The notes under the pieces were generated by a model. It saw nothing but the letters and a program-made list of their open reading frames with translations, had not been told where the DNA came from and did not search any database. This document shows, in pieces, positions 11,990 through 49,798 of a stretch of DNA of 64,000 bases; the first letter of the stretch is position 1, and every line of letters begins with the position of its first letter. Position numbers and translations under genes: made by a program. Source of the stretch: Peptococcaceae bacterium BRH_c4a (GTDB lineage: Bacteria > Bacillota > Desulfotomaculia > Desulfotomaculales > Desulfocucumaceae); contig LADN01000068.1 of NCBI GenBank assembly GCA_000961585.1, positions 1-64,000 of the forward strand. The letters are read 5' to 3'.

Positions 11990-12455
11990 AATAACCGCCT
12001 TGTGGGCGGTGCCGTCTTGCAGACGGCGGAATCCAGGAGCCAGAAGCCAGAATCCAGAATCCAGAATCCAGAATCCAGAATAAGCAAGCGTGACCCTCAA
12101 GCGACATGCAGAGAGGGGGAGGGGTTTTAGTCCAGGCGGATGTTCCGGAGGCTGTTATCTGGCTCTTGGCGACAGAGCCGTACGGACTGCCGAACCGGCT
12201 GCAGGACGCAGCCGGTAGCCGGAATCGACGCATGGACGCGGCGTTGGAGGCGGTCGGCAGTCCGTTAGGCGACGAGCTTAGAGCCAGTTCAGCCGGAGGA
12301 TAAGTAGATCGGACTCAAACCCCTCCACCGGCCACAGAGTGACCCAGGAGCGACCCCGGAAAAACTCTGGGCTTGCATAAAAATGCTTTGGTGCTTCAGT
12401 GCTTCAGCGCTTTAATGTTTTAATGTGGCATATACTTTCCTAAACGATAAAAAAT
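11986..12455 (+). repeat. Dispersed structured intergenic element, copy 2
   Basis: Fills the gap between resB and ccsB. It begins with ATAAAATAACCGCC and ends with CATATACTTTCC plus an A-run. It has hairpin CCGCC-TTGTG-GGCGG, hairpin CCGTC-TTGCA-GACGG, about seven 7-nt CCAGAAT-type units (12029-12079), then a long stem with base GGAGGGGTTTTAGTCC against GGACTCAAACCCCTCC. The internal loop again has GGCGAC..GAG on both sides, capped by GGACTGCCGA/TCGGCAGTCC. Compared with copy 1 the stem bases differ but pairing is kept, including an A-T to G-C change. Being inside an operon, it is probably transcribed. Confidence 0.85.
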
Positions 12456-37107: not shown

Positions 37108-40100
37108 TTGTTACTGAAATCCAAAAAGGTTATTATTCTCCTTTTGATTATCGCAACCGCCATAATGATGGTGTTTTACTTTTTACAAAAAACTCCTTCC
37201 GCCGACCTGCCTGTCGCAAAAAACGGCTTTATTGACCTATCAGATTGGAATTTTGACAAAGATGGCAATATCAAGCTTGACGGAGAATGGGAATTCTATT
37301 GGGGCAGCCTTCTTACGCCAGATGACTTTGCAACTGCTAAACCAAACTCATCTATATACCCGGATGGATATATCAAGGTGCCGTCTCCCTGGAAAGGCAA
37401 AATAGGAAACGCCCAACTGTCCGACAATGGTGTTGCTACCTACAGACTAAAGGTAAGGCTGGGGTCTGTGAATACCATGTATGGGATAAAAACCACCAGT
37501 ATCCGCATGTCAAATAAAATATTTATTGACGGCTTTGAGGTGGGAAAAAGAGGGAATCCGGCAATGTCTTACAAGGATGGCTATATTATGGCGAATACGC
37601 CATATGTTACATTCTTTCATCCAAAAAGCAACGAGTTGGAGGTTATCGTTCAGGTTGCCGACTTTGATTACAGGGCAGGGGGCATTGTGCAAAGCATATA
37701 CCTGGGAAAGCGGACTGACATATTTGTGATGGCTGGACGTTTTAACTTTTTTAACGGGTTTGTGGCGGCCTGCCTTTTAATTACCGGGATTTATTATCTG
37801 TTTGTCTACCTTGGCAGGCGTAAGGATTTGAGCCTGATGTATTACAGCGCCTACGCCATAACGTTTTCTTTTTTTGAGCTGGCTTATGGCGAAAAAATTC
37901 TCAATCAAATGTTTCCTGATATTCCAGAGGTTATTATAACTAAGGTGCTGAATATATTGCTCTATGCCAGCATAATATTTATATGTCTTTTTATTAAAAG
38001 TATTACGGGAAAACTTCTGCCAGACTGGTTTACTCGCACTGTGGTCATAGTTATGGGGGGATACATTGTATTATTATCAGTACTCCCTATCAAAATGTCT
38101 TTAAGTGTTCAAGATATATTTCTACTGTTTGGAATGACGGTATATGTTTTTATTTTAGCATTCCTTGTATTTGCGGTTGTTCAGGAGCAATATGGGAATT
38201 TGGGAAGAAACGGATTCATTCAGCTGATTATTGCGTTAACCTGTGTATTGATATATTTTGCTGATGGAGTAATTTATATAAATAATATGAAAAACGATAA
38301 TTACATTGGGTATGCAGCTTTATTGTTATTTATAGCAATGATTTCCAGCATGCTTTCACAGCAATATAACAATGCTTACAATACCATTGAAAGGATGAGC
38401 GTTAAGCTCTTAGAATCGGACAGGCTCAAGGATGAATTTCTGGTGAATACCTCCCATGAATTGAAAACGCCCCTGCATGGAATAATTAACATCACCCGGT
38501 CGGTTTTGGAAAGCGCTTCAGGCACTATTGCGGAAAAGCAAAAGGAGAGCCTGAACTTTGTAGTTACCATTGCCAAAAGGCTGTCCAGTCTCATCAATGA
38601 CATCATCGACTTCCAAAACCTGAAAAATCATACCCTGCATATGGATATAAGGGTATTCGACCTCCATGCGCCTGTACAGGTGGTGCTTGAGGTGCTTAAA
38701 TATATGCGGGCAGAAAAAGAACTCTCCCTGGTAAACAGAATCCCGCCCGGGACTTTTTTCGTAAGGGCAGATGAAAACCGGCTGCGGCAAATTATCTACA
38801 ACCTTGTTGGTAATGCCCTGAAATACACAGAAAGGGGCAAAGTTGAGATAATGGCCTGGGCTGATGAGAACCGTATTGTTGTCAGTGTGGAAGATACCGG
38901 AATGGGCATCCCTGAAGCATCGCAAGAAAGTATTTTCCTTCCCTTCGATCATACTGGCAACACCGGTGCCTCAGAATACCGATCTTCCGGATTGGGACTC
39001 CCCATTTCACGCCGGCTTGCCGAGCACATGGGAGGAAAACTCCTACTGGATTGGTCTGTGCCAGGAAAGGGATCCCGGTTTATCTTCACACTGCCATCCG
39101 ACTCCGGTAAGGAAGCTGCTGATAAGTCAGCGGCCGCCGCAGCATATTTACAATACGGCGCAGATACTGAAGAAGCTGCGCAAAAGTCTGCACATTCCCG
39201 TTTTTATACCATTTTGCTGGTTGATGATGAGGTATCCAATATCCGCGTTTTAACCGATATGTTCCGTGAAGAAGACTACGAAACGGTGGTCGCCTATAAT
39301 GGCGGGCAAGCTCTGGAAATGATCCGTCAAAACAGGAACATCTCGCTGGTGCTTCTGGATGTCATGATGCCCGGGATGTCGGGATTTGAAGTATGCCGGA
39401 AAATCAGGGAAGAGTATTCCCTCTCCGACCTCCCTGTCCTTCTTCTGACGGTTCGTAACACCCCGCAAGACATAGAAACAGGTTTTAAGGCCGGCGCCAA
39501 TGATTTTGTCGCCAAGCCCTTCAACGCCAGAGAACTGCGGGCGCGGGTAAGTACATTGATCATGCTCAGAAGGTCGGTGGGCGAAGCGGTGGCCAATGAG
39601 ATGGCCTTCCTGCAATCACAAATTAAACCTCATTTTTTATATAACGCCCTGAGCACCATCATGAATTTATGTTATACCGACGGTGAAAAAGCAGGAAATC
39701 TTCTCGCTTCACTCAGTGAGTATCTGAAAAAAAGCTTTGACATTGATAGTACAGCATGCTCTTCAAGCCTGGAAAGCGAGCTGGAATTGACAAAAGCCTA
39801 CACTGATATTGAACAGGCAAGATTCAGGGAACGTCTGAAAATGGTCTATAGAATAGATAGCAGCTTGCCGGAATTGAGAATACTGCCTCTCACCATCCAG
39901 CCGTTGGTGGAAAACGCCGTGCGGCACGGCATAATGCCCAGGGAATCGGGGGGAACTGTCACCCTCTCTGTTCAAAAGGCGGGAGAGTTTGTGGAGGTAT
40001 GCGTGGAAGATGATGGCGTTGGTTTTACTGATGCGGAAGCGGTGCTGAAGAAAGAGGCTGGAAACAAAAAACAACGTAACGGTGTGGGACTGTCCAACAT

Positions 40101-40236
40101 TCAACGCAGGCTGGTGAATTCATACGGCTCCGGGCTATGGGTCAATAGCTCAGAGGAAACGGGGACAAGAGTAACTTTCCATATTCCTTTGGATATGAAG
40201 GACCGGAACCATGAGCATGAAAATAATGGAGAATAA
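37108..40236 (+). CDS. Hybrid sensor with 7TMR-DISM input, HisKA kinase, receiver and second LytS-type kinase
   Basis: A signalling protein of 1042 residues. One membrane helix, an external jelly-roll domain (about 40-205) and a seven-helix membrane domain (about 215-415), as in 7TMR-DISM proteins. Then a HisKA domain (NTSHELKTPLHG, His near 449) with HATPase (DTGMGI, GLGLPISRRL), a receiver (LLDVMMPG, Asp near 751) and a His_kinase/HATPase pair of the LytS type (QIKPHFLYN near 840, DDGVGF near 970). Two full kinase modules in one chain suggest an internal relay. TTG at 37108 follows GAGG by about 10 nt. Four nt separate the stop from the regulator ATG. Confidence 0.92.
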   Translation: MLLKSKKVIILLLIIATAIMMVFYFLQKTPSADLPVAKNGFIDLSDWNFDKDGNIKLDGEWEFYWGSLLTPDDFATAKPNSSIYPDGYIKVPSPWKGKIGNAQLSDNGVATYRLKVRLGSVNTMYGIKTTSIRMSNKIFIDGFEVGKRGNPAMSYKDGYIMANTPYVTFFHPKSNELEVIVQVADFDYRAGGIVQSIYLGKRTDIFVMAGRFNFFNGFVAACLLITGIYYLFVYLGRRKDLSLMYYSAYAITFSFFELAYGEKILNQMFPDIPEVIITKVLNILLYASIIFICLFIKSITGKLLPDWFTRTVVIVMGGYIVLLSVLPIKMSLSVQDIFLLFGMTVYVFILAFLVFAVVQEQYGNLGRNGFIQLIIALTCVLIYFADGVIYINNMKNDNYIGYAALLLFIAMISSMLSQQYNNAYNTIERMSVKLLESDRLKDEFLVNTSHELKTPLHGIINITRSVLESASGTIAEKQKESLNFVVTIAKRLSSLINDIIDFQNLKNHTLHMDIRVFDLHAPVQVVLEVLKYMRAEKELSLVNRIPPGTFFVRADENRLRQIIYNLVGNALKYTERGKVEIMAWADENRIVVSVEDTGMGIPEASQESIFLPFDHTGNTGASEYRSSGLGLPISRRLAEHMGGKLLLDWSVPGKGSRFIFTLPSDSGKEAADKSAAAAAYLQYGADTEEAAQKSAHSRFYTILLVDDEVSNIRVLTDMFREEDYETVVAYNGGQALEMIRQNRNISLVLLDVMMPGMSGFEVCRKIREEYSLSDLPVLLLTVRNTPQDIETGFKAGANDFVAKPFNARELRARVSTLIMLRRSVGEAVANEMAFLQSQIKPHFLYNALSTIMNLCYTDGEKAGNLLASLSEYLKKSFDIDSTACSSSLESELELTKAYTDIEQARFRERLKMVYRIDSSLPELRILPLTIQPLVENAVRHGIMPRESGGTVTLSVQKAGEFVEVCVEDDGVGFTDAEAVLKKEAGNKKQRNGVGLSNIQRRLVNSYGSGLWVNSSEETGTRVTFHIPLDMKDRNHEHENNGE

Positions 40237-40240
40237 AGAT

Positions 40241-41368
40241 ATGTTGAGAGTGGTAATTGTAGATGACGAGATTCCCGCCATTGAATTAATGAAGAGGCTT
40301 TTTAATAAGGTTGATCAGTGCCAAATGGTGGGCGCCTTTTCCCTTCCTTCGGAGGCTTTGGATCAAATCCCAAAGCTTAGGCCTGATGCAGTGTTTTTGG
40401 ATATAGAAATGCCGGGTATGAACGGCATTGAGCTTGCAGAAAAACTGATTCAGCAGGTTGAGGACCTGCAGGTGGTTTTTTCCACCGCTTACAACCAATA
40501 TGCGCTGGAAGCCTTCAGGGTCAACGCTCTGGACTACATTATGAAGCCGGTGACCGCTGACGCACTGAACAAAACTGTAGCAAGGCTTATTAAGCTGAAA
40601 GAGTTAAAACCAGAAAAAAAGAACCGTGAAAACAAAAAGCGAATCCGGTGCTTCGGAGACTTTGAGGTTTTCAGCGAAAGCCAGAAACCTGTAAAATGGC
40701 TGACAAGGAAGGTAGAGGAGCTTTTTGCCTATTTCATTATCCACAGGGATGCCAAAATAGACAAATGGGCCGTAGGAGAAGCCCTCTGGCCCGATGAGGG
40801 CGCACAGAAGGTGACAAGCAATCTTCACACCACCCTGTACCGTCTGCGTAAAACTCTTCAGGAGATGGGCATTCCGGTGGAAATCGAGTCTGAAAAGGGT
40901 GGGCGCGGCGGTTACCGTTTCAGTCTGGGCGATATCTCCTCTGATATCTCCCAGTTTGAAGAATTCATCATGGGGCGTCATATTGTAAATGAAAAAAACA
41001 TAGAAGAGTTTGAACGCATCTGCTCCCTTTACCGGGGAGACCTCTTTGCCCGTCAAGACTATGTCTGGTGTGCTGGGGAAAGGGAACGGCTGATGAAATA
41101 CTATACAGCTTTTACAAGGAATATGGCAAGGCACTACATGAAGGCTGGAGATTATTTAAAGGCCGCCGAAACCATACAGCAGACCCTTAAAAGGACCCCC
41201 TATGACGAGGATGCCCATCAAATTCTGCTCCATGCCTATTCCGGCCAGAAGGAAAGGAGTTCGCTGGTACAGCATTACACCGCCATGGAAACCCTGTTCA
41301 GGCAGGAGTTGGGTGTGGAGCCCCTGCCTGCCACCCGCCGAATCTATGAAGAGCTTTTGAGAACGTAA
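40241..41368 (+). CDS. Response regulator with winged helix and BTAD (SARP-type) domain
   Basis: A regulator of 375 residues. Receiver with acidic pair VVIVDDE, acceptor Asp in FLDIEMPG near 54 and Lys in MKPV. Then a Trans_reg_C-like winged helix (about 130-215) and a bacterial transcriptional activation domain (about 220-375), ending in FRQELGVEPLP, the SARP hallmark. SARP proteins bind direct heptamer repeats 11 bp apart just upstream of a -10 box; such a site lies at 41505-41537. The ATG at 40241 follows GGAG by 9 nt; an ATG at 40211 inside the kinase gene is less likely. Cognate of the hybrid kinase. Confidence 0.92.
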   Translation: MLRVVIVDDEIPAIELMKRLFNKVDQCQMVGAFSLPSEALDQIPKLRPDAVFLDIEMPGMNGIELAEKLIQQVEDLQVVFSTAYNQYALEAFRVNALDYIMKPVTADALNKTVARLIKLKELKPEKKNRENKKRIRCFGDFEVFSESQKPVKWLTRKVEELFAYFIIHRDAKIDKWAVGEALWPDEGAQKVTSNLHTTLYRLRKTLQEMGIPVEIESEKGGRGGYRFSLGDISSDISQFEEFIMGRHIVNEKNIEEFERICSLYRGDLFARQDYVWCAGERERLMKYYTAFTRNMARHYMKAGDYLKAAETIQQTLKRTPYDEDAHQILLHAYSGQKERSSLVQHYTAMETLFRQELGVEPLPATRRIYEELLRT

Positions 41369-41429
41369 ATTTGCATTGATCAAATAGGTCGTAGAATTTC
41401 TTTAAAAAGTTGTTTCGACATAAATTATA

Positions 41430-41476
41430 AACCCTTGAAGTCCTTAAAAATAAGGATTTTAAGGGTTTTGTCTTTG
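41430..41476 (+). terminator. Terminator of the kinase-regulator pair
   Basis: AACCCTTGAAGTCCTT pairs with AAGGATTTTAAGGGTT, with a short mismatch, followed by TTTTGTCTTT. It separates the two-component genes from the pel operon. Confidence 0.8.
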
Positions 41477-41504: not shown

Positions 41505-41537
41505 TGTAAGAGGTTTGTAAGAATGAAGGGATAAAAT
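41505..41537 (+). promoter_or_regulatory. Candidate SARP-activated promoter of the pel operon
   Basis: TGTAAGA (41505-41511), four bases, TGTAAGA (41516-41522), nine bases, TAAAAT (41532-41537). The repeat period is 11 bp and the -10 box lies 8-9 bp after the second repeat, as in SARP-type promoters. No good -35 box is present, which fits an activator-dependent promoter. The first gene starts 57 nt downstream of the -10 box. Confidence 0.65.
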
Positions 41538-41594
41538 GAGGATTAGGCTGTCCAAGGCTTCATTTCAAACTGAAAAAAATCCCGGCACAAGTAG

Positions 41595-41987
41595 GTGATA
41601 ACTATAGCCATCGCTGTAATGGTAGACGAAAATACAGAGTCGCTGCAAGAGACCCTTTCTCTGATAAGCAAAATAAGTATATTTGACAAGGTTTATGCCT
41701 ACAGCGATCCGGCGGAGGCTTACCGTTGCATACGAAAGCAGGGCTGTGACGTGCTGTTTACAGAGACTGATATGAAGAGAATGCATGGCTTTACGCTGGT
41801 AAAAAGGCTGTCTAAGCTGCTGCCCAACCTGCTTGTCGTGTTTGTCACCAGCAAAGGTGAGTATGCCATGGAGGCTTTTCAGAATGGAGCACTGGACTAC
41901 ATACTTAAGCCGTTGAATTCCAGCAGACTGGACAAAACAGTGAAAAAGCTACGGGTTCATGGCTGCTTATGCAGAGATTTGAGGTAG
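41595..41987 (+). CDS. Stand-alone degenerate receiver domain (Asp to Glu)
   Basis: A 130-residue receiver that ends where an output domain would begin. It has the acidic pair (MVDEN), Thr (VFVTSK) and Lys (LKPL), but the phospho-acceptor is Glu (LFTETDM near 54) where the neighbour at 40241 has Asp (FLDIEM). The similarity to that neighbour suggests duplication and loss of the DNA-binding part. Glu may mimic the phosphorylated state. The GTG start has a weak ribosome site. The stop is 4 nt from the epimerase-PelD gene, so they are cotranscribed. Confidence 0.8.
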   Translation: MITIAIAVMVDENTESLQETLSLISKISIFDKVYAYSDPAEAYRCIRKQGCDVLFTETDMKRMHGFTLVKRLSKLLPNLLVVFVTSKGEYAMEAFQNGALDYILKPLNSSRLDKTVKKLRVHGCLCRDLR

Positions 41988-41991
41988 TTAT

Positions 41992-44181
41992 ATGGATATA
42001 CTTGTTACGGGTGGCTGCGGCTTCATCGGATCCCATGTGGCAGAAAGATTTTATAAGGAAGGCCATAATGTTTTTATTATTGATAACCTGACTTCCGGTT
42101 TGCGCAGCAATATCAATTTCAAGCATAAGTTTTATGAAATGGCTGTTGAAGATATGCGGTGCGAGGACATTTTCTGCATTAACAAATTTAACGTCGTTGT
42201 CCATCTGGCAGCACAGACCAGTGTTCCCGCTTCCTTTGAAAACCCCTATAAAGATACTGTGTCAAACGTAACGGGTCTTATTAATATGCTTAGCCTCTCC
42301 GAAAGGTATGGTGTAAAGAGGTTTATTTTTATATCTTCGGCCGCTGTATATGGGGACCCCGATCAACTGCCCACTGATGAAGATACGGAGACAAATCCCA
42401 TGGCGCCTTATGGAATCAGTAAACTGGTTGGTGAAATGTACTGCCATAAGTGGCATGAAATATATGGATTGAGCACAGTATGCCTGAGATTGTCCAACGC
42501 GTACGGCCCGAGGCAGGCCGCAAAGGGAGAAGGCGGAGTTGTATCGGTATTTATGAAGCAAATCCTTGACGGGCAGAGTTTAACAGTTTACGGAGATGGA
42601 AAACAAACGAGGGATTTTATTTATGTGGAGGACATTGCAGACGCTGTGTACAGATGCGTCGAAAGTGGTTTTTGCGGTGTAATGAACCTATCCGCAAATA
42701 CCGAAATAAGTATCAATGATCTTATAGATACCTTGGCTCATCGTGCGGATATAAAAGAAGCGTTGCATAAGGAAAAAAGAAGCGGAGACATATCCAGGTC
42801 ATCGATGGACAATTCAAGGATAAAGAGGGAACTTAACTGGTTGCCGAAATACAACTTTGAAGAAGGACTCCAAAAGACCTTCGATTGGTATGCGTCAATA
42901 TATAAAAAACAGGAAAAGGAGACAGAGGCCAGCAAAAAAAGCGAGACAACAAAGCCCCGGAGTAAGTTGGCGGATTATGCAATACCCTTTGTTGAGAGTT
43001 TATTAGGTTTTATAGCAGTCATATTTATTGAGAGATTATTTAACAGAGGCGATCATTTCTTTATAGACTTAAAGCTTTTGTATATTATACTTATGGGCAT
43101 TGCTTATGGAACAAAGCATTCAATCATGGCAGTGGCACTATCATCCAGTTTGTTCATTATTTCCAATGCAGGTTATGGAAGAGATCTAATATCATTATTT
43201 TATGATCCAAACAGCCTGTTGCATATTGCCTATTATCTATTTGCCGGTTTTTCTGTAGGATACACCATTGATATGAAAAACAGAAAAGTAAAATCACAAG
43301 ATTTGAAGATAGAAGCAACAGAGGAAAAGCTTGAATTTGTAACTAAAGTGTACGATGAAACCAGAATCGTAAAGAATGAACTGCAAAAGCAAATAATGGC
43401 ATCGCAGGACAGCTTTGGCAAAATATACAGCATTATTAAGGAATTGGATACGTTTGAACCTGAAGATGTTTTTAGTTCAGCCGTTCAAGTGATGGAAAAA
43501 ATACTGAAGGTAAACAGCATCGCTATACATGTCATGAGCCGAAACGGACTGTTTGCAAGACTTGTTGCAAATTCCGGCAGCCTTTCTTGGCATATAAGCA
43601 AGTCCATGAAAGTGGAAGACAGCCCTGCGTTAAAATATATTATGGAATCAAAGGAAATATTCGTTAACAAGAAGTTAGATCCTTCCCTCCCTATAATGAT
43701 GGCCCCTATTACAGACAACGGTAAAACAGTTGCGATCATTTCTATCCTGGAGCTGGACTTTGATAATATAAACCTGTATTATCAAAACCTCTTCAAGGTG
43801 GCTTCAGACATGATTTCTTCTTCGCTTTCCAAAGCCCACAGGTACCAGGAGGCAACCAATGACAGCAGATACATAAGCGGTACTGCCATACTTAACAGGG
43901 ACAGCTTTGAAAAATTACTGCACGGCAAGATGCAAACAAAGGAAAAGGAAATGGCAAATTATGTACTGCTGTGCGTAAACGCCGCTGACCCGGCAGATAA
44001 TTTGGAACATAGGATTTCCAACACGATACGCGATCGGGATTACATAGGTTTAGGCAAAGATAACAGATTATACATACTGCTTTCAAACACCAGTGAAAAA
44101 GAAGCCGGCGCCGTAACCAAAAGGTTGACGGACAAAGGAATTTCCACATCTATACCAGCAGGAGCTGATTTGATTGCATAG
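41992..44181 (+). CDS. Fusion of sugar-nucleotide 4-epimerase (PelX/GalE-like) with PelD-like c-di-GMP receptor
   Basis: A continuous frame of 729 residues. Residues 1-310 form a short-chain epimerase: NAD site GGCGFIGSH (7-15), catalytic Ser in SSAAVYGD near 118 and YGISK (140-144). A charged linker leads to about four membrane helices (325-435), a coiled coil, a GAF domain (about 475-620) and a degenerate GGDEF domain (625-729), the order of PelD. The GGDEF signature is lost (KDNRL), but RDRD at 680-683 keeps the RxxD c-di-GMP inhibitory site. The epimerase would supply the UDP-GalNAc-type precursor; the PelD part would switch on polymerisation. GAGG lies 7 nt before the ATG. Confidence 0.88.
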   Translation: MDILVTGGCGFIGSHVAERFYKEGHNVFIIDNLTSGLRSNINFKHKFYEMAVEDMRCEDIFCINKFNVVVHLAAQTSVPASFENPYKDTVSNVTGLINMLSLSERYGVKRFIFISSAAVYGDPDQLPTDEDTETNPMAPYGISKLVGEMYCHKWHEIYGLSTVCLRLSNAYGPRQAAKGEGGVVSVFMKQILDGQSLTVYGDGKQTRDFIYVEDIADAVYRCVESGFCGVMNLSANTEISINDLIDTLAHRADIKEALHKEKRSGDISRSSMDNSRIKRELNWLPKYNFEEGLQKTFDWYASIYKKQEKETEASKKSETTKPRSKLADYAIPFVESLLGFIAVIFIERLFNRGDHFFIDLKLLYIILMGIAYGTKHSIMAVALSSSLFIISNAGYGRDLISLFYDPNSLLHIAYYLFAGFSVGYTIDMKNRKVKSQDLKIEATEEKLEFVTKVYDETRIVKNELQKQIMASQDSFGKIYSIIKELDTFEPEDVFSSAVQVMEKILKVNSIAIHVMSRNGLFARLVANSGSLSWHISKSMKVEDSPALKYIMESKEIFVNKKLDPSLPIMMAPITDNGKTVAIISILELDFDNINLYYQNLFKVASDMISSSLSKAHRYQEATNDSRYISGTAILNRDSFEKLLHGKMQTKEKEMANYVLLCVNAADPADNLEHRISNTIRDRDYIGLGKDNRLYILLSNTSEKEAGAVTKRLTDKGISTSIPAGADLIA

Positions 44182-45067
44182 TTTTCTTGTGGTGCACTTA
44201 CTACTGTGTTTTATTTATGCCATCTTCATGTATAAGAAAAGAGGCCAGCAGGCAGTATACTGCTTTGTTGTTGTCTTTTTAATGCCTATAGCCGGTTTCT
44301 TTTTCCTTTTCATTCTGAACATGCTTAAGTCGTCTGGACGTGACATTGACTTTGGAATATTCAATACGGATGAGGCAGCCTTCATTCCAAATATTGGATT
44401 TGTCAAAATGGTTGATTACGAGAGAGAAGTGAATATTGTACCGATTGAAGAAGCGCTTCTTATCAATTCGGACGATGTCAAAAGAAAATTGATCATTGAT
44501 ATATTTAAAGAGGATGCTGTATCCTATATTGATTTTTTGGAAAAGGCGCTAAACAACCGTGATACTGAAACATCACACTATGCTGCAGCGGCTGTATCAG
44601 ATATATACCGGAAATTTTCCCTGGAACTTCAGAGTTTTTCTGTAAAATATGAGATGGACCGGAGTAACACTGATGTGTTGATTCCATATGCAAAAGTGTT
44701 GAAGGGCTATCTTTCCAGCACGCTGCTTGATAAAAAAAGTCAGAGAAAATACAAATATGCTTACTCACAGGTAATGGCTGATCTTCTGTTAGTCAATCCA
44801 AAAGAGGAGTACTTTATGGAAAAAATCAACTGCGATATTAATCTAAAAGAGTTTGACCAGGCAAGACATTACTGTGAAACCTTTCTCTCTATGTATCGAT
44901 CTATTGAGGCGCCTTATCTCATGTTTCTAAAGTATTATTACATTATGAAGGACAATAGTGGCTTTTATAAGATGCTGTCTGACTTAAAGAGCTCCTCCGC
45001 GAGGTTTTCCAATAAGGGACTGAGCATCGTAAGGCACTGGTCGGAGTGCACATATGAATATCAGTAG
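44174..45067 (+). CDS. pelE: PelE-like membrane protein
   Basis: A protein of 297 residues with two N-terminal membrane helices (about 3-18 and 25-48), then a soluble helical part of TPR character (about 100-290). In Pel systems PelE links PelD to the synthase. Sequence similarity is weak, so the call rests on topology and on the place between PelD and PelA. TTG at 44174 overlaps the PelD-fusion stop by 8 nt and has AGGAG 9 nt upstream. Confidence 0.7.
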   Translation: MHSFLVVHLLLCFIYAIFMYKKRGQQAVYCFVVVFLMPIAGFFFLFILNMLKSSGRDIDFGIFNTDEAAFIPNIGFVKMVDYEREVNIVPIEEALLINSDDVKRKLIIDIFKEDAVSYIDFLEKALNNRDTETSHYAAAAVSDIYRKFSLELQSFSVKYEMDRSNTDVLIPYAKVLKGYLSSTLLDKKSQRKYKYAYSQVMADLLLVNPKEEYFMEKINCDINLKEFDQARHYCETFLSMYRSIEAPYLMFLKYYYIMKDNSGFYKMLSDLKSSSARFSNKGLSIVRHWSECTYEYQ

Positions 45068-46898
45068 GAAAAAAATACTGGTCATTCTTTTTTTATTAAT
45101 GGTCCTTGCGCTATTGATCCAGCTTGCACGGTCGCATTATATATTTTCCATTCAAAGAAACAATGCATTAGCTATTGAATTGGATGGCCGGATGATTTTT
45201 AATGCGCTTCCCGAAGATATGATCAACAGAAAAGAAAGGGACAGCTACTGCGTCCTGTTCGACTCACGGGAACCTAACAGTGTGGTTCTTAAAGACAATA
45301 TTATCCGGATGATTGATTTGATGAAGAAGGATTATTCCTTGTCTGATATTAGCAAAGTTAATAAATTGGATCTGGCGGCCGATACGGCAATCATATGTCT
45401 CAAACGCCTAAGCGATATTCCGGATATGGACTACCTGATGGACTTTGCCGAGCAGGGCGGTTCTGTTTTTTTTGCAACAACCCCGGAACTTGGAGATAAT
45501 TTTTATAAAATATATAGAAAAATAGGAATCCATGAGGCCAATGAACATGTATATACAGAGGGCATAACAATGCTAAACAACGTAATGTTGGGCTCCCAGG
45601 GGTTATCCGTGGGAAGTGACTTTATTAATAACACATCCCTTACCGTTGTACTGGATGACAGGTGTCGGCTGCATGCAGAATCATTGGATAAAATACCGTT
45701 GCTTTGGGATGTACCCTATGGAAAGGGCAAAATAGTGGTTTTTAATGGCACAATGCTGAATGTAAAGGGAAGCAGGGGACTTATTGCAGGCACACTCAGC
45801 CTATTGAAGGAAGATTACTTATACCCTATCATGAATTTTAAGGTGGTGTTTATCGATGATTTTCCTGCACCTTTTCCTGAAGGATATATTGATTCGATTT
45901 ATAAGGAATATGGGCGAAGCACAAAAGGATTCTTCAGGGATGTGTGGTGGCCGGATATTCTAAGAACTGGTGCACTTTATGATATTAAGTATAGTGGAAT
46001 GATAATTAGCTCCTATAATAATAATGTAAAACCACCCTTCATCCCTAAAAGTGGTCAGGATACAACAAATTTGATTCTGTATGGGCGGGAGCTTCTAAAA
46101 AATGGCGGCGAGATGGGAATTCATGGATATAACCATCAGTCCCTTATATTAAAAGGCGAGCCTATGGAGCATTACGTTACCTCAGTGTTGGAATATAATG
46201 TATGGGAAACCTGGGAGGATATTAAAAAATCCCTTGATTCTTCTATGCAATACTTTGAGACCGCATACAAGGATTACGTTATTGCCAGCTATGTACCTCC
46301 TTCCAATGTCCTCGGACCAACCGGGAGAAGCTTACTGAAGAAGTCAATTCCTGATCTTGAGACAATTGCATCCATCTATTTTATAGACAACGAAGCGGAT
46401 GCTTATGTACAGGAGTTTGAAATAGCAGAAGATGGGATTGTGGAGTTTCCAAGGCTGACATATGGTTATACCAATGATGATATAAACACCTGGCGTATTA
46501 TAAACGGTATTACTTCTATGGGAATTGTATCCCATTTTATCCACCCTGACGATGTACTTGACATGGAAAGAAACAAGGACAAACCATGGAGTGATCTATC
46601 CAAGGAGTTCGAAGCCTTTTTCAAAAAGGTATGGGACAGTTTTCCGTGGCTCAGGAGTATGACTGTTACGGGTGGGAGCAGAGAGGCCAGGAAGTTTATT
46701 GAAAGCCGCACCTATATAGAATATGAGAGTAACGGTATCAAAGGCTACATCAACGGCTTTTCGGGAGAGTCCTATTTTATTCTAAGGACGGGTAAAAAAG
46801 CCTCGGCTGGAGAGAACTGCAGTGTTAAGTCAATTGATAAGGGCGCTTATATTGTTTGTGCAAAAAAATCGGCTTTTAGCATCGCACTAAGTAGGTGA
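45054..46898 (+). CDS. pelA: PelA-type polysaccharide deacetylase (DUF2194)
   Basis: A 614-residue protein anchored by one N-terminal helix (about 8-25). An N-terminal glutamine-amidotransferase-like region (about 60-255) precedes a metal-dependent deacetylase region: IDDFPAP near 267 supplies the Asp, and GIHGYNH near 355-361 supplies two His residues. The PelA glycoside hydrolase domain is absent, as reported for Gram-positive Pel clusters. It would deacetylate the polymer outside the membrane. GGAGTG precedes the ATG, and the gene overlaps pelE by 14 nt. Confidence 0.85.
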   Translation: MNISRKKILVILFLLMVLALLIQLARSHYIFSIQRNNALAIELDGRMIFNALPEDMINRKERDSYCVLFDSREPNSVVLKDNIIRMIDLMKKDYSLSDISKVNKLDLAADTAIICLKRLSDIPDMDYLMDFAEQGGSVFFATTPELGDNFYKIYRKIGIHEANEHVYTEGITMLNNVMLGSQGLSVGSDFINNTSLTVVLDDRCRLHAESLDKIPLLWDVPYGKGKIVVFNGTMLNVKGSRGLIAGTLSLLKEDYLYPIMNFKVVFIDDFPAPFPEGYIDSIYKEYGRSTKGFFRDVWWPDILRTGALYDIKYSGMIISSYNNNVKPPFIPKSGQDTTNLILYGRELLKNGGEMGIHGYNHQSLILKGEPMEHYVTSVLEYNVWETWEDIKKSLDSSMQYFETAYKDYVIASYVPPSNVLGPTGRSLLKKSIPDLETIASIYFIDNEADAYVQEFEIAEDGIVEFPRLTYGYTNDDINTWRIINGITSMGIVSHFIHPDDVLDMERNKDKPWSDLSKEFEAFFKKVWDSFPWLRSMTVTGGSREARKFIESRTYIEYESNGIKGYINGFSGESYFILRTGKKASAGENCSVKSIDKGAYIVCAKKSAFSIALSR

Positions 46899-46902
46899 AG
46901 GA

Positions 46903-48309
46903 ATGAAAATTTGTATTATAGCCGAAGGCAGCTATCCTTTCATAACCGGCGGCGTTTCAAGTTGGATACAGATGCTCATCAGGAACTTTCCGGAGCATCA
47001 GTTTGTAATCTATGCCATCGGCGCAGAGAATAAAAACAGGGGGAAATTCGTTTACAGCTTGCCATCTAATGTTATCGGAATCACGGAAGTGTTCCTTGAC
47101 ACCTTCCTGCACGAAAAGGGGAAATGGGGAAAACGGTTTAAATTGAGCAACAGTGAAGGGATTATTTTTCAGAATCTTCTAAATGGAAGGGACTTTAATT
47201 GGGATGAATTATTCAGCATCTTGGCAAGATTTGATTCAATGACGGACTTCATTTTGAGCAAGAGCTTTTATGACATTCTTTCCCAAGCATATGCCGTAAA
47301 GTTCTCTCAAACCTCCTTCGTTGACTATTTTTGGTCGGTGCGCGGCATGGTGCTGCCGCTCTTTAATATCGTCAGACAGCCTATACCTGAAGCCGATCTT
47401 TATCATAGCGTATCTGCAGGATATGCCGGAGTGGTTGGCGCCCTTTGCGCATACTTAACCAAAAAGCCATATATACTGACGGAGCATGGCATATATACCA
47501 GGGAGAGGGAGGAAGAAATCATTAAATCCCAGTGGTTGAAGGGATATTTCAAGGATATGTGGATTGATTTCTTTTACAGCATGTCAAGGAGTGCTTATAG
47601 TAAGGCGGATCGAGCCATATCGTTATTTGGCAGGAACAGGGAGATCCAGATTGAGTTGGGCTGTCCTGCGGAGAAAATTCAAGTCATTTCCAATGGCGTA
47701 AGTCTGGAAGAATATAATCAAATTGCCAATGAGCCCAGGGATAAAGGCGAAATAAATATTGGCGCCATTGTTAGGGTCGTTCCTATAAAGGATATCAAGA
47801 CCATGATTCACGCCTTTGCACTGGTTAAAGAGGAAATCCCAAATGCCGGCTTTTATATCATGGGGCCTACCGATGAAGATCCCTTATACTTTGAAGAATG
47901 CATGCGATTGGTAGAGCTTTTAGGTGTTAAGGATGTAATGTTTACAGGCAAGGTTAATATTAAGGATTATATTGGGAAGATAGATGTAATGACGCTGACA
48001 AGCATCAGTGAAGGGCAACCGCTGGCAATACTGGAGACCATGGCGTGCAAAAAACCGTCTGTGGCCACCGATGTGGGAAGTTGCAGGGAACTGCTGTACG
48101 GTAACAATGACAATTACGGTGAGGCTGGGATTGTCGTACCGGTCATGGATTATGTAAAAATCGCCCAAGCCATTATTGAACTCTGCAAGAACAAGGGACT
48201 TCGCGATATGATGGGTAAGAATGCATATAATCGGGTTGCGGGCATTTACACCCTTGACATTTTCATAGATTCATACAGGAAACTATATAGCAGCCTGGGA
48301 GGGGTATGA
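46903..48309 (+). CDS. pelF: Pel polysaccharide glycosyltransferase PelF
   Basis: A cytosolic GT-B glycosyltransferase of 468 residues (family 4-like), the Pel polymerase subunit. The N-terminal EGSYPFITGGVSSW is a PelF hallmark, TEHGIYTRERE near 192 is the acceptor-site region, and SISEGQPLAILE near 366-378 is the nucleotide-sugar EX7E-like motif. AGGTGAAGG lies before the ATG, 4 nt after pelA. Confidence 0.95.
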   Translation: MKICIIAEGSYPFITGGVSSWIQMLIRNFPEHQFVIYAIGAENKNRGKFVYSLPSNVIGITEVFLDTFLHEKGKWGKRFKLSNSEGIIFQNLLNGRDFNWDELFSILARFDSMTDFILSKSFYDILSQAYAVKFSQTSFVDYFWSVRGMVLPLFNIVRQPIPEADLYHSVSAGYAGVVGALCAYLTKKPYILTEHGIYTREREEEIIKSQWLKGYFKDMWIDFFYSMSRSAYSKADRAISLFGRNREIQIELGCPAEKIQVISNGVSLEEYNQIANEPRDKGEINIGAIVRVVPIKDIKTMIHAFALVKEEIPNAGFYIMGPTDEDPLYFEECMRLVELLGVKDVMFTGKVNIKDYIGKIDVMTLTSISEGQPLAILETMACKKPSVATDVGSCRELLYGNNDNYGEAGIVVPVMDYVKIAQAIIELCKNKGLRDMMGKNAYNRVAGIYTLDIFIDSYRKLYSSLGGV

Positions 48310-48310
48310 C

Positions 48311-49798
48311 ATGGCAGGAATTGGATTTGAACTGAGAAAATTATTTACCGGAAAGGGATACCTTGATAGTATAAAAGCATACTTCGTATCCTCCCTGGTG
48401 ACGGTTGGTCCCATGATTCTATGTATTACGCTTATGACGGTGCTGCAGATACTCCTTATGTACGTAGGCGTGGACTTTTCGCAAAGAGAGCTGTTTTTGT
48501 CAGCGATGGTTTATGCCTTTGTTTTTTCGCTTGTGGTGGCCAGCATCTTCATTATGCTTGCTTCCAGGTATATCGCCGATATGGTTTTTATCAAGGACTA
48601 TAATCGGATTATAGCGTCTTTTTACGGGGTTATTGTGGTCTGCCTCCCCATCGGAGGTCTTTTGGGAGGGATTTTTTACCAGAGGTCCCCCATTGATTTG
48701 CCGTTTAAGTTGGCAGCTTACTTGTTTTATATGGAGCTTATTGTTATATGGATTCAGGCTATTTACATATCGTTGTTCAGGGATTATTTTAAAATACTGA
48801 TAGGGTTTTTGACAGGGGTTGTCACTGCAATTATATTGTCATGCGTTGCCCTGCTTTTTACCGAGGTAAGAGCAGTACTGGGTCTTTTAATATCCATTGA
48901 CATAGGTTTTTTTGTTATTATGGTATCCTATATGCACTATCTGAAGAGGTTCCTTCCAGATACAGACAGGAATATTTTTAACTTTATATCCTATATTGAC
49001 CGATATCCATCATTGATATTTATATGCTTTTTTTACAATCTGGGAATGTATTCCCATAATTTTGTATTCTGGTTAAGCGAATATGGGGTCAGGGCGGCAG
49101 ATACATACAGTTTTGCTCCTTTTTATGATGTTCCTATGTTTTATGCCTATTTCACCATCGTCCCGACCCTGGTGCTTTTTGTTGTTACAGTGGAAACATC
49201 TTTTATAGAGAAATATAAAAACTACTACGGCAATATTAATAACGGTGGAAATTACCAGGAGATCGAAATGGCGAAGAAGGAAATGTCGGTGGTTTTAGCT
49301 CAGGAAATAAGCTATATCATGGAAGTACAGCTGTTTTTTTCGATCATTTCACTGCTTATAGGGAGAAAACTGCTGCCGAAAATAGGGATGACCGGGCTTT
49401 CCATAGATATATTCAGCATCCTTGTGCTGGGCTGTTACGTGTTTGTCTTGATGTTTGTCATTATACTGATACTGCTGTATTTTGACGATAGAAAAGGCGC
49501 ACTGATTACAACCTCGTTTTTTCTTCCCAGCAATATCCTTTTTAGTATGCTGACCTTGCAATGGGGAGAAGCTTACTTTGGACTGGGCTTTTTTATGTCA
49601 GGTTTTTTCTCGCTGCTGATTGGACTTGGCAGGCTCATATATTATATCAGGAATATAGATTACTATACATTTTGCTCCCAGCCGATACTCTATAAAGAAC
49701 AAATTGGTTTATTTACCAAACTCTCACGGCTGCTTGAGGGGGACAGGAGGACAACATCTCCGGCAGGGAAAGACCCAGCCCCTTTTCCTGGCACATGA
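48311..49798 (+). CDS. pelG: Pel polysaccharide export membrane protein PelG
   Basis: A 495-residue membrane protein with about 12 helices, related to the Wzx/MATE-like polysaccharide transporters. The first residues MAGIGFELRKLF are the PelG signature. It forms the synthase-export complex with PelD, PelE and PelF. GGAGGGG lies 6 nt before the ATG, 1 nt after the pelF stop. It is the last pel gene; no pelB or pelC (outer-membrane parts) follows. The C-terminal tail after about 475 is proline-rich and less conserved. Confidence 0.95.
   Translation: MAGIGFELRKLFTGKGYLDSIKAYFVSSLVTVGPMILCITLMTVLQILLMYVGVDFSQRELFLSAMVYAFVFSLVVASIFIMLASRYIADMVFIKDYNRIIASFYGVIVVCLPIGGLLGGIFYQRSPIDLPFKLAAYLFYMELIVIWIQAIYISLFRDYFKILIGFLTGVVTAIILSCVALLFTEVRAVLGLLISIDIGFFVIMVSYMHYLKRFLPDTDRNIFNFISYIDRYPSLIFICFFYNLGMYSHNFVFWLSEYGVRAADTYSFAPFYDVPMFYAYFTIVPTLVLFVVTVETSFIEKYKNYYGNINNGGNYQEIEMAKKEMSVVLAQEISYIMEVQLFFSIISLLIGRKLLPKIGMTGLSIDIFSILVLGCYVFVLMFVIILILLYFDDRKGALITTSFFLPSNILFSMLTLQWGEAYFGLGFFMSGFFSLLIGLGRLIYYIRNIDYYTFCSQPILYKEQIGLFTKLSRLLEGDRRTTSPAGKDPAPFPGT

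Follow-up and report, generated by a model that had tools for sequence, protein, structure and literature searches.

Direct repeats with the geometry of a SARP-type promoter precede a Gram-positive pel operon and follow the gene of a receiver-BTAD response regulator

The regulator and the hybrid kinase

In the window, the whole 64,000-nucleotide stretch of DNA that was analysed, a hybrid histidine kinase gene (37108-40236), a regulator gene (40211-41368) and a pel operon follow one another on the forward strand. Pfam assigns to the kinase a 7TMR-DISM sensor, a HisKA-HATPase module, a receiver and a second His_kinase/HATPase module. As an observation in its own right, the HisKA-HATPase and LytS-type His_kinase-HATPase modules flank the one receiver. 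The end of the kinase gene (40236) overlaps the start of the regulator gene (40211), and the true start of the regulator may be 40241 (MLRVV). The initial annotation had placed a receiver-BTAD protein directly 5' of the repeats described below, and the Pfam matches to Response_reg and BTAD identified the product of this gene as a REC-wHTH-BTAD (SARP-type) response regulator. It meets the criterion for a SARP-type protein, an OmpR-type winged helix followed by BTAD, and its receiver meets that for a response regulator, with D64 in VFLDIEMP, the DD pair, T and K all intact. The SARP part aligns full-length to EmbR (2FEZ) and partially to AfsR (8HVR). A Foldseek search with the regulator model returned EmbR at ranks 1, 2 and 4 and AfsR within the top 11; the model was built from a three-sequence input, has low confidence, with a mean pLDDT of 61, and lends weak support only. 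The recognition helix of the window protein, NLHTTLYRLRKTL, aligns as T..YR.RK, with the positions of T, R and RK conserved in TTLYRLRK. Helix 3 of AfsR contacts DNA through T88, R94 and K95, and R92 makes a base contact (PMC10936776); the helix TTLYRLRK was matched to these contact residues by eye, without a solved structure.

A search of its own genome found this regulator to be the sole REC-BTAD protein; the one other BTAD match lies inside a 1091-aa frame. The hybrid kinase is proposed as its partner, and in relatives, kinases sharing the N-terminal motif DGEWEFYW stand 5' of the REC-BTAD genes. The literature searched, which covered few subscription journals, yielded no described receiver-BTAD regulator in Bacillota.

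The pel operon

The first gene of the operon (41595-41987) encodes a single-domain receiver of 130 aa, recognised by Pfam (Response_reg), by alignment and by its occurrence at the same place in relatives; its acceptor Asp is replaced by Glu, with T and K retained in the alignment. Next come PelD (41992-44181), composed of an N-terminal epimerase domain, a membrane part, a GAF-like part and a degenerate GGDEF, PelE (44174-45067; 30-43% identity to PelE in other pel operons), PelADA (DUF2194; 45054-46898), the glycosyltransferase PelF (46903-48309) and the exporter PelG (48311-49798). The order pelD (epimerase fusion)-pelE-pelADA-pelF-pelG satisfies the criterion for a Gram-positive pelDEADAFG operon. 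Hence the earlier statement that the repeats lie in front of a pel operon holds for the operon downstream, with the correction that its first gene is a receiver gene and not a pel gene. Towards the C-terminus of PelD, RDRD stands before the degenerate GGDEF and may form a c-di-GMP I-site, thus c-di-GMP control probably persists on top of any transcriptional control. A loss of the c-di-GMP domain from PelD was considered and dropped since RDRD is kept, though no Pfam domain was assigned there.

We found no other pel in the genus, family or order of the source organism. PelG remained without a match when 112 other genomes of the order were searched, which makes acquisition of the operon probable; the nearest relatives identified for it belong to Paenibacillus (44-47% identity). 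As the order offers no other pel, the comparison had to proceed via REC-BTAD loci and distant pel operons. The pelDEADAFG operon of Bacillus cereus and relatives contains the same core genes and the same epimerase-PelD fusion, and its known control is exerted by c-di-GMP through PelD (PMC7112168). A term search of PMC7112168 revealed no two-component or transcriptional regulator of B. cereus pel. The window operon, unlike that of B. cereus, is joined to a REC-BTAD system and a receiver gene.

The direct repeat and the promoter

Between the regulator gene and the operon lies the direct repeat TGTAAGA-GGTT-TGTAAGA (41505-41522, forward strand), with half-sites at 41505-41511 and 41516-41522 and GGTT between them, which we propose, in the absence of binding data, as the binding site of a REC-BTAD dimer. 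Nine nucleotides, ATGAAGGGA, separate the second TGTAAGA from the -10 hexamer TAAAAT (41532-41537), a spacing that is fixed in relatives; transcription is predicted to start near 41544. The promoter scan detected no acceptable -35 hexamer 16-18 nt 5' of TAAAAT. An intrinsic terminator (41429-41468; 18-pair stem, 4-nt loop and T-rich tail) follows the regulator gene and stands between its transcription unit and the pel promoter. Taken together, the missing -35 and the terminator make it most likely that the pel genes form their own transcription unit. The initial annotation had described TGTAAGA-N4-TGTAAGA with an 11-bp period, 9 nt before TAAAAT, in a promoter without a good -35 box and with the geometry of SARP-activated promoters; the sequence read and the promoter scan agree on each of these points. 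SARP promoters are defined by direct repeats with an 11-bp period, a distance of about 8 bp between the 3' repeat and the -10, and a poor -35, and here the period is 11, the distance from heptamer to -10 is 9 nt (8 if the repeat unit is counted as 8 nt) and the -35 is lacking.

Short two-copy repeats are common, and the similarity could have arisen by chance in AT-rich DNA, with read-through or a different promoter accounting for pel transcription. When up to 3 mismatches were allowed, the pattern was not commoner than in shuffles, and near matches were not enriched in the own genome: the 18-mer pattern occurs exactly once in the window and once in the 3.49-Mb genome, while with up to 2 mismatches 18 genome matches were obtained versus 13 for the reversed control, hence the exact TGTAAGA motif has no regulon in its own genome. 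Nevertheless, on both strands of the window only one 7/7 repeat combines the 11-bp period, the 9-nt gap and a -10, and shuffling of the 226-nt intergenic region produced a comparable site (7/7 repeat, period 11, gap of 8-10 and a -10 of at least 5/6) in only 15 of 20,000 cases. Moreover, the geometry recurs in relatives, as described below, and the terminator argues against read-through into pel. We therefore regard a chance origin as scarcely credible and treat the repeat as a putative operator.

One of the closest known counterparts is afsS, where a side-by-side AfsR dimer occupies two repeats of 11 bp and takes over the -35 contact (PMC10936776). AfsR/afsS and other Streptomyces SARP promoters share with the window a pair of tandem 11-bp units, each of 7 conserved bp and a 4-bp spacer, immediately 5' of the -10, the poor -35 and a protein with wHTH and BTAD. 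In contrast to the Streptomyces SARPs, the window protein, from Bacillota, has its SARP domain as the output part of a two-component response regulator, and its proposed target is an exopolysaccharide operon with the half-site TGTAAGA. A receiver with SARP-type output, control of exopolysaccharide and biofilm, and promoter binding in EMSA are also known for GSU1771 of Geobacter sulfurreducens, which differs in being a global regulator with repressed targets that is not linked to Pel (PMC10599522). In the passages of PMC10599522 consulted, no direct-repeat operator is given for GSU1771. Several targets of GSU1771 are repressed and its loss raises exopolysaccharide (PMC10599522), so the REC-BTAD protein on the repeats might likewise be a repressor, or bind independently of the kinase, as for part of the GSU1771 regulon. 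However, at afsS it is the activator that occupies such a position, just 5' of a -10 without a -35 (PMC10936776), and a dimer there would substitute the -35 contact and not block RNA polymerase. Repression or kinase-independent binding thus seems very unlikely to us, and activation remains the preferred reading.

Related REC-BTAD loci

Sixteen other REC-BTAD loci from the same order were compared with the window. In 10 of them, heptamers 11 bp apart lie 9 nt before a -10 and no more than 400 nt after the regulator gene. The consensus is xxxxAGx-N4-xxxxAGx-N9-TAnnnT, with AG at positions 5-6 of both heptamers in the 10 loci, and the shuffle mean was 0.01 against the 10 observed. An offset scan found repeat periods other than 11 near background. 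The sequence of the box differs by group (GTTTAGT or GTTAAGT, TGGGAGA, GTTCAGA, and TGTAAGA in the window); a metagenome-assembled genome of Clostridia (L102) has TGTAAGA/TGTCAGA. The box type tracks the type of the recognition helix (permutation 1/5000), to which shared ancestry contributes. The loci are akin to varying degree, so neither the counts nor the correlation of helix with box can be treated as independent observations, and the AG core itself was recognised in some of these data, from sites of the same family; consequently the very low shuffle values make the independent evidence look stronger than it is. The offset scan and the genome-wide contrast given below are the cleaner tests.

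Three loci (L052-L054) had no box after the REC-BTAD gene. Three others (L059-L061) carry GTTCAGA-AATT-GTTCAGC-N9-TATAAT approximately 100-140 nt 5' of the REC-BTAD gene, and this location suggests autoregulation in that family. The genes 3' of the box in the same order include some for SLH and other large secreted proteins. Two genes of locus L074 were tried as signal peptidase W and TasA and rejected, as the likeness had no Pfam support. As in the window, a single-domain receiver gene lies 3' of the box in L011-L013, L056, L057, L102 and L103, and CheY-like receivers occupy this place in L124, L125 and L129. The acceptor of the opening receiver is Glu in the window, Arg in L011, L012, L013, L056 and L057, and Asp in L102 and L103. 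Separately, in L103 (Paenibacillus antarcticus) two TGTCATT-N4-TGTCATT boxes with a 9-nt gap to the -10 follow the REC-BTAD gene, at 2690 and 3154 on the reverse strand, and the first precedes a receiver gene.

Other pel operons and genome-wide occurrence of the box

The box also stands 5' of the first gene, in an identical register, in nine of 33 pel operons from other Bacillota (Paenibacillus, Cohnella, Metabacillus, Lysinibacillus and others), with carriers in each of the four genera named. The box of P. mendelii, for instance, is GTTCAGA-ATTT-GTTCAGA-N9-TATAAT. With the -10 set at -12 to -7, the Bacilli GTTCAG puts TTCAG at -38 to -34; in afsS, TTCAGC occupies -38 to -33 (PMC10936776), and judged by the numbering of that paper the half-sites would share one register. 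A REC-BTAD relative (a match to the P. oceani protein at E below 1e-80) is encoded in the genomes of all nine boxed operons versus 8 of the 24 unboxed ones (Fisher P 0.0009). Since 24 of the 33 operons had no recognisable box, its link to pel is not a general feature of Pel. The pel/REC-BTAD linkage is tight in the window and loose in P. oceani, where the REC-BTAD gene lies about 1.5 kb 5' of pel with a divergent gene between, and in Lysinibacillus, where it lies 3' of pel; near the other pel operons no REC-BTAD gene was present within the flanks examined. The initial annotation had advised a check of other pel operons with linked BTAD genes for the same repeats; this came out positive, with the box in 9 of 33 and a linkage that is mostly loose or absent.

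In ten genomes picked for a pel box and a REC-BTAD gene, GTTCAGW-N4-GTTCAGW-N9-TANNNT with up to one mismatch gave 26 matches and the reversed pattern 2. Four pel-bearing genomes without a REC-BTAD match contained no GTTCAGW box; they encode 13-28 OmpR/PhoB-type (Trans_reg_C) proteins. The genes after the GTTCAGW boxes include pel and genes for SLH proteins, sortases, a collagen-binding adhesin, an HD-domain protein, an MHYT protein and single-domain receivers. In L122, L130, L114, L112 and L128, whose hosts are Paenibacillus, Cohnella and Lysinibacillus, the genes directly 3' of such boxes encode sortase, collagen-binding adhesin and S-layer proteins, and they may constitute a surface and biofilm regulon.

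Tandem repeats of 11 bp are not exclusive to SARPs, being also bound by PhoP of Mycobacterium (PMC4832192) and Streptomyces (PMC6988585). The repeats in front of pel could thus belong to another regulator of the OmpR/PhoB type, e.g. PhoP under phosphate limitation, with the REC-BTAD gene adjacent by coincidence or its product acting elsewhere. The winged helix of this type also recognises 7-bp repeats with 4-bp spacers, and pho boxes near the -35 region are built in this way; PhoP of M. tuberculosis binds 7-4-7 repeats (PMC4832192), and the Streptomyces PHO boxes are 11-nt repeats with GTTCACC, where PhoP and AfsR compete at afsS (PMC6988585). OmpR/PhoB-family regulators, however, lack BTAD, whereas boxes of the window type track REC-BTAD genes: they recur beside 10 of the 16, their sequence varies with the REC-BTAD recognition helix, and the GTTCAGW box is missing from the four genomes without REC-BTAD despite their many Trans_reg_C proteins. 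In addition, none of the three PstS-like genes in the own genome was seen to be preceded by a TGTAAGA repeat, and one of them has an ATGTTAT repeat 5' of it, but this comparison is weak because the PhoP site in this genome is not known. We consider binding by such a regulator unlikely, and the adjacent REC-BTAD protein the better candidate.

Proposed regulation of pel

Given that the same spaced repeat stands before surface and biofilm genes beside related regulators in many Gram-positives, the repeat looks like a real regulator site. It is, in our judgement, highly probable that it is the operator of a SARP-type promoter through which the hybrid kinase and the REC-BTAD protein switch on the pel operon. 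The comparative data support the earlier proposal that the receiver-BTAD protein encoded just 5' acts on a SARP-activated promoter. The site and where it lies, the protein domains and the recurrence of the geometry beside related regulators and before pel operons are direct observations, while binding, phosphorelay, activation and signal are inferred. A signal perceived by the kinase (37108-40236) would lead to phosphorylation of the regulator (40211-41368), a step deduced from gene linkage and the intact receiver residues. Two regulators might then sit side by side on the same helix face, one per TGTAAGA half-site, where sigma region 4 needs a -35, so that the dimer would replace the missing contact and recruit RNA polymerase to TAAAAT. 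The six-gene operon of the single-domain receiver and pelD-E-ADA-F-G would thereby be expressed, with Pel output probably also needing c-di-GMP binding by PelD. A feedback role of the opening receiver is a guess.

A mobile regulatory module seems to carry Pel as one of its cargoes. A further reading, whose chances we regard as evenly balanced, is that of a portable Bacillota cassette made up of the hybrid kinase, the REC-BTAD activator, the SARP box promoter, a single-domain receiver that is expressed from this promoter, often lacks its acceptor residue and feeds back on the kinase or activator, and an exchangeable surface or matrix cargo, which would be Pel in the window and, in other genomes, S-layer or other secreted proteins.

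What is known of SARPs comes mainly from Actinobacteria, where they switch antibiotic clusters. Our data indicate that, across Bacillota, two-component regulators rely on the SARP promoter grammar in front of pel, S-layer, sortase, adhesin and receiver genes. For a large class of response regulators that is mostly uncharacterised this provides a readable operator code, and Gram-positive Pel, whose described control is c-di-GMP, gains a transcriptional input; both can be examined in culturable Paenibacillus. Elsewhere in the window, a TwoAYGGAY RNA (RF01731) was detected at 12143-12301 above the gathering score.
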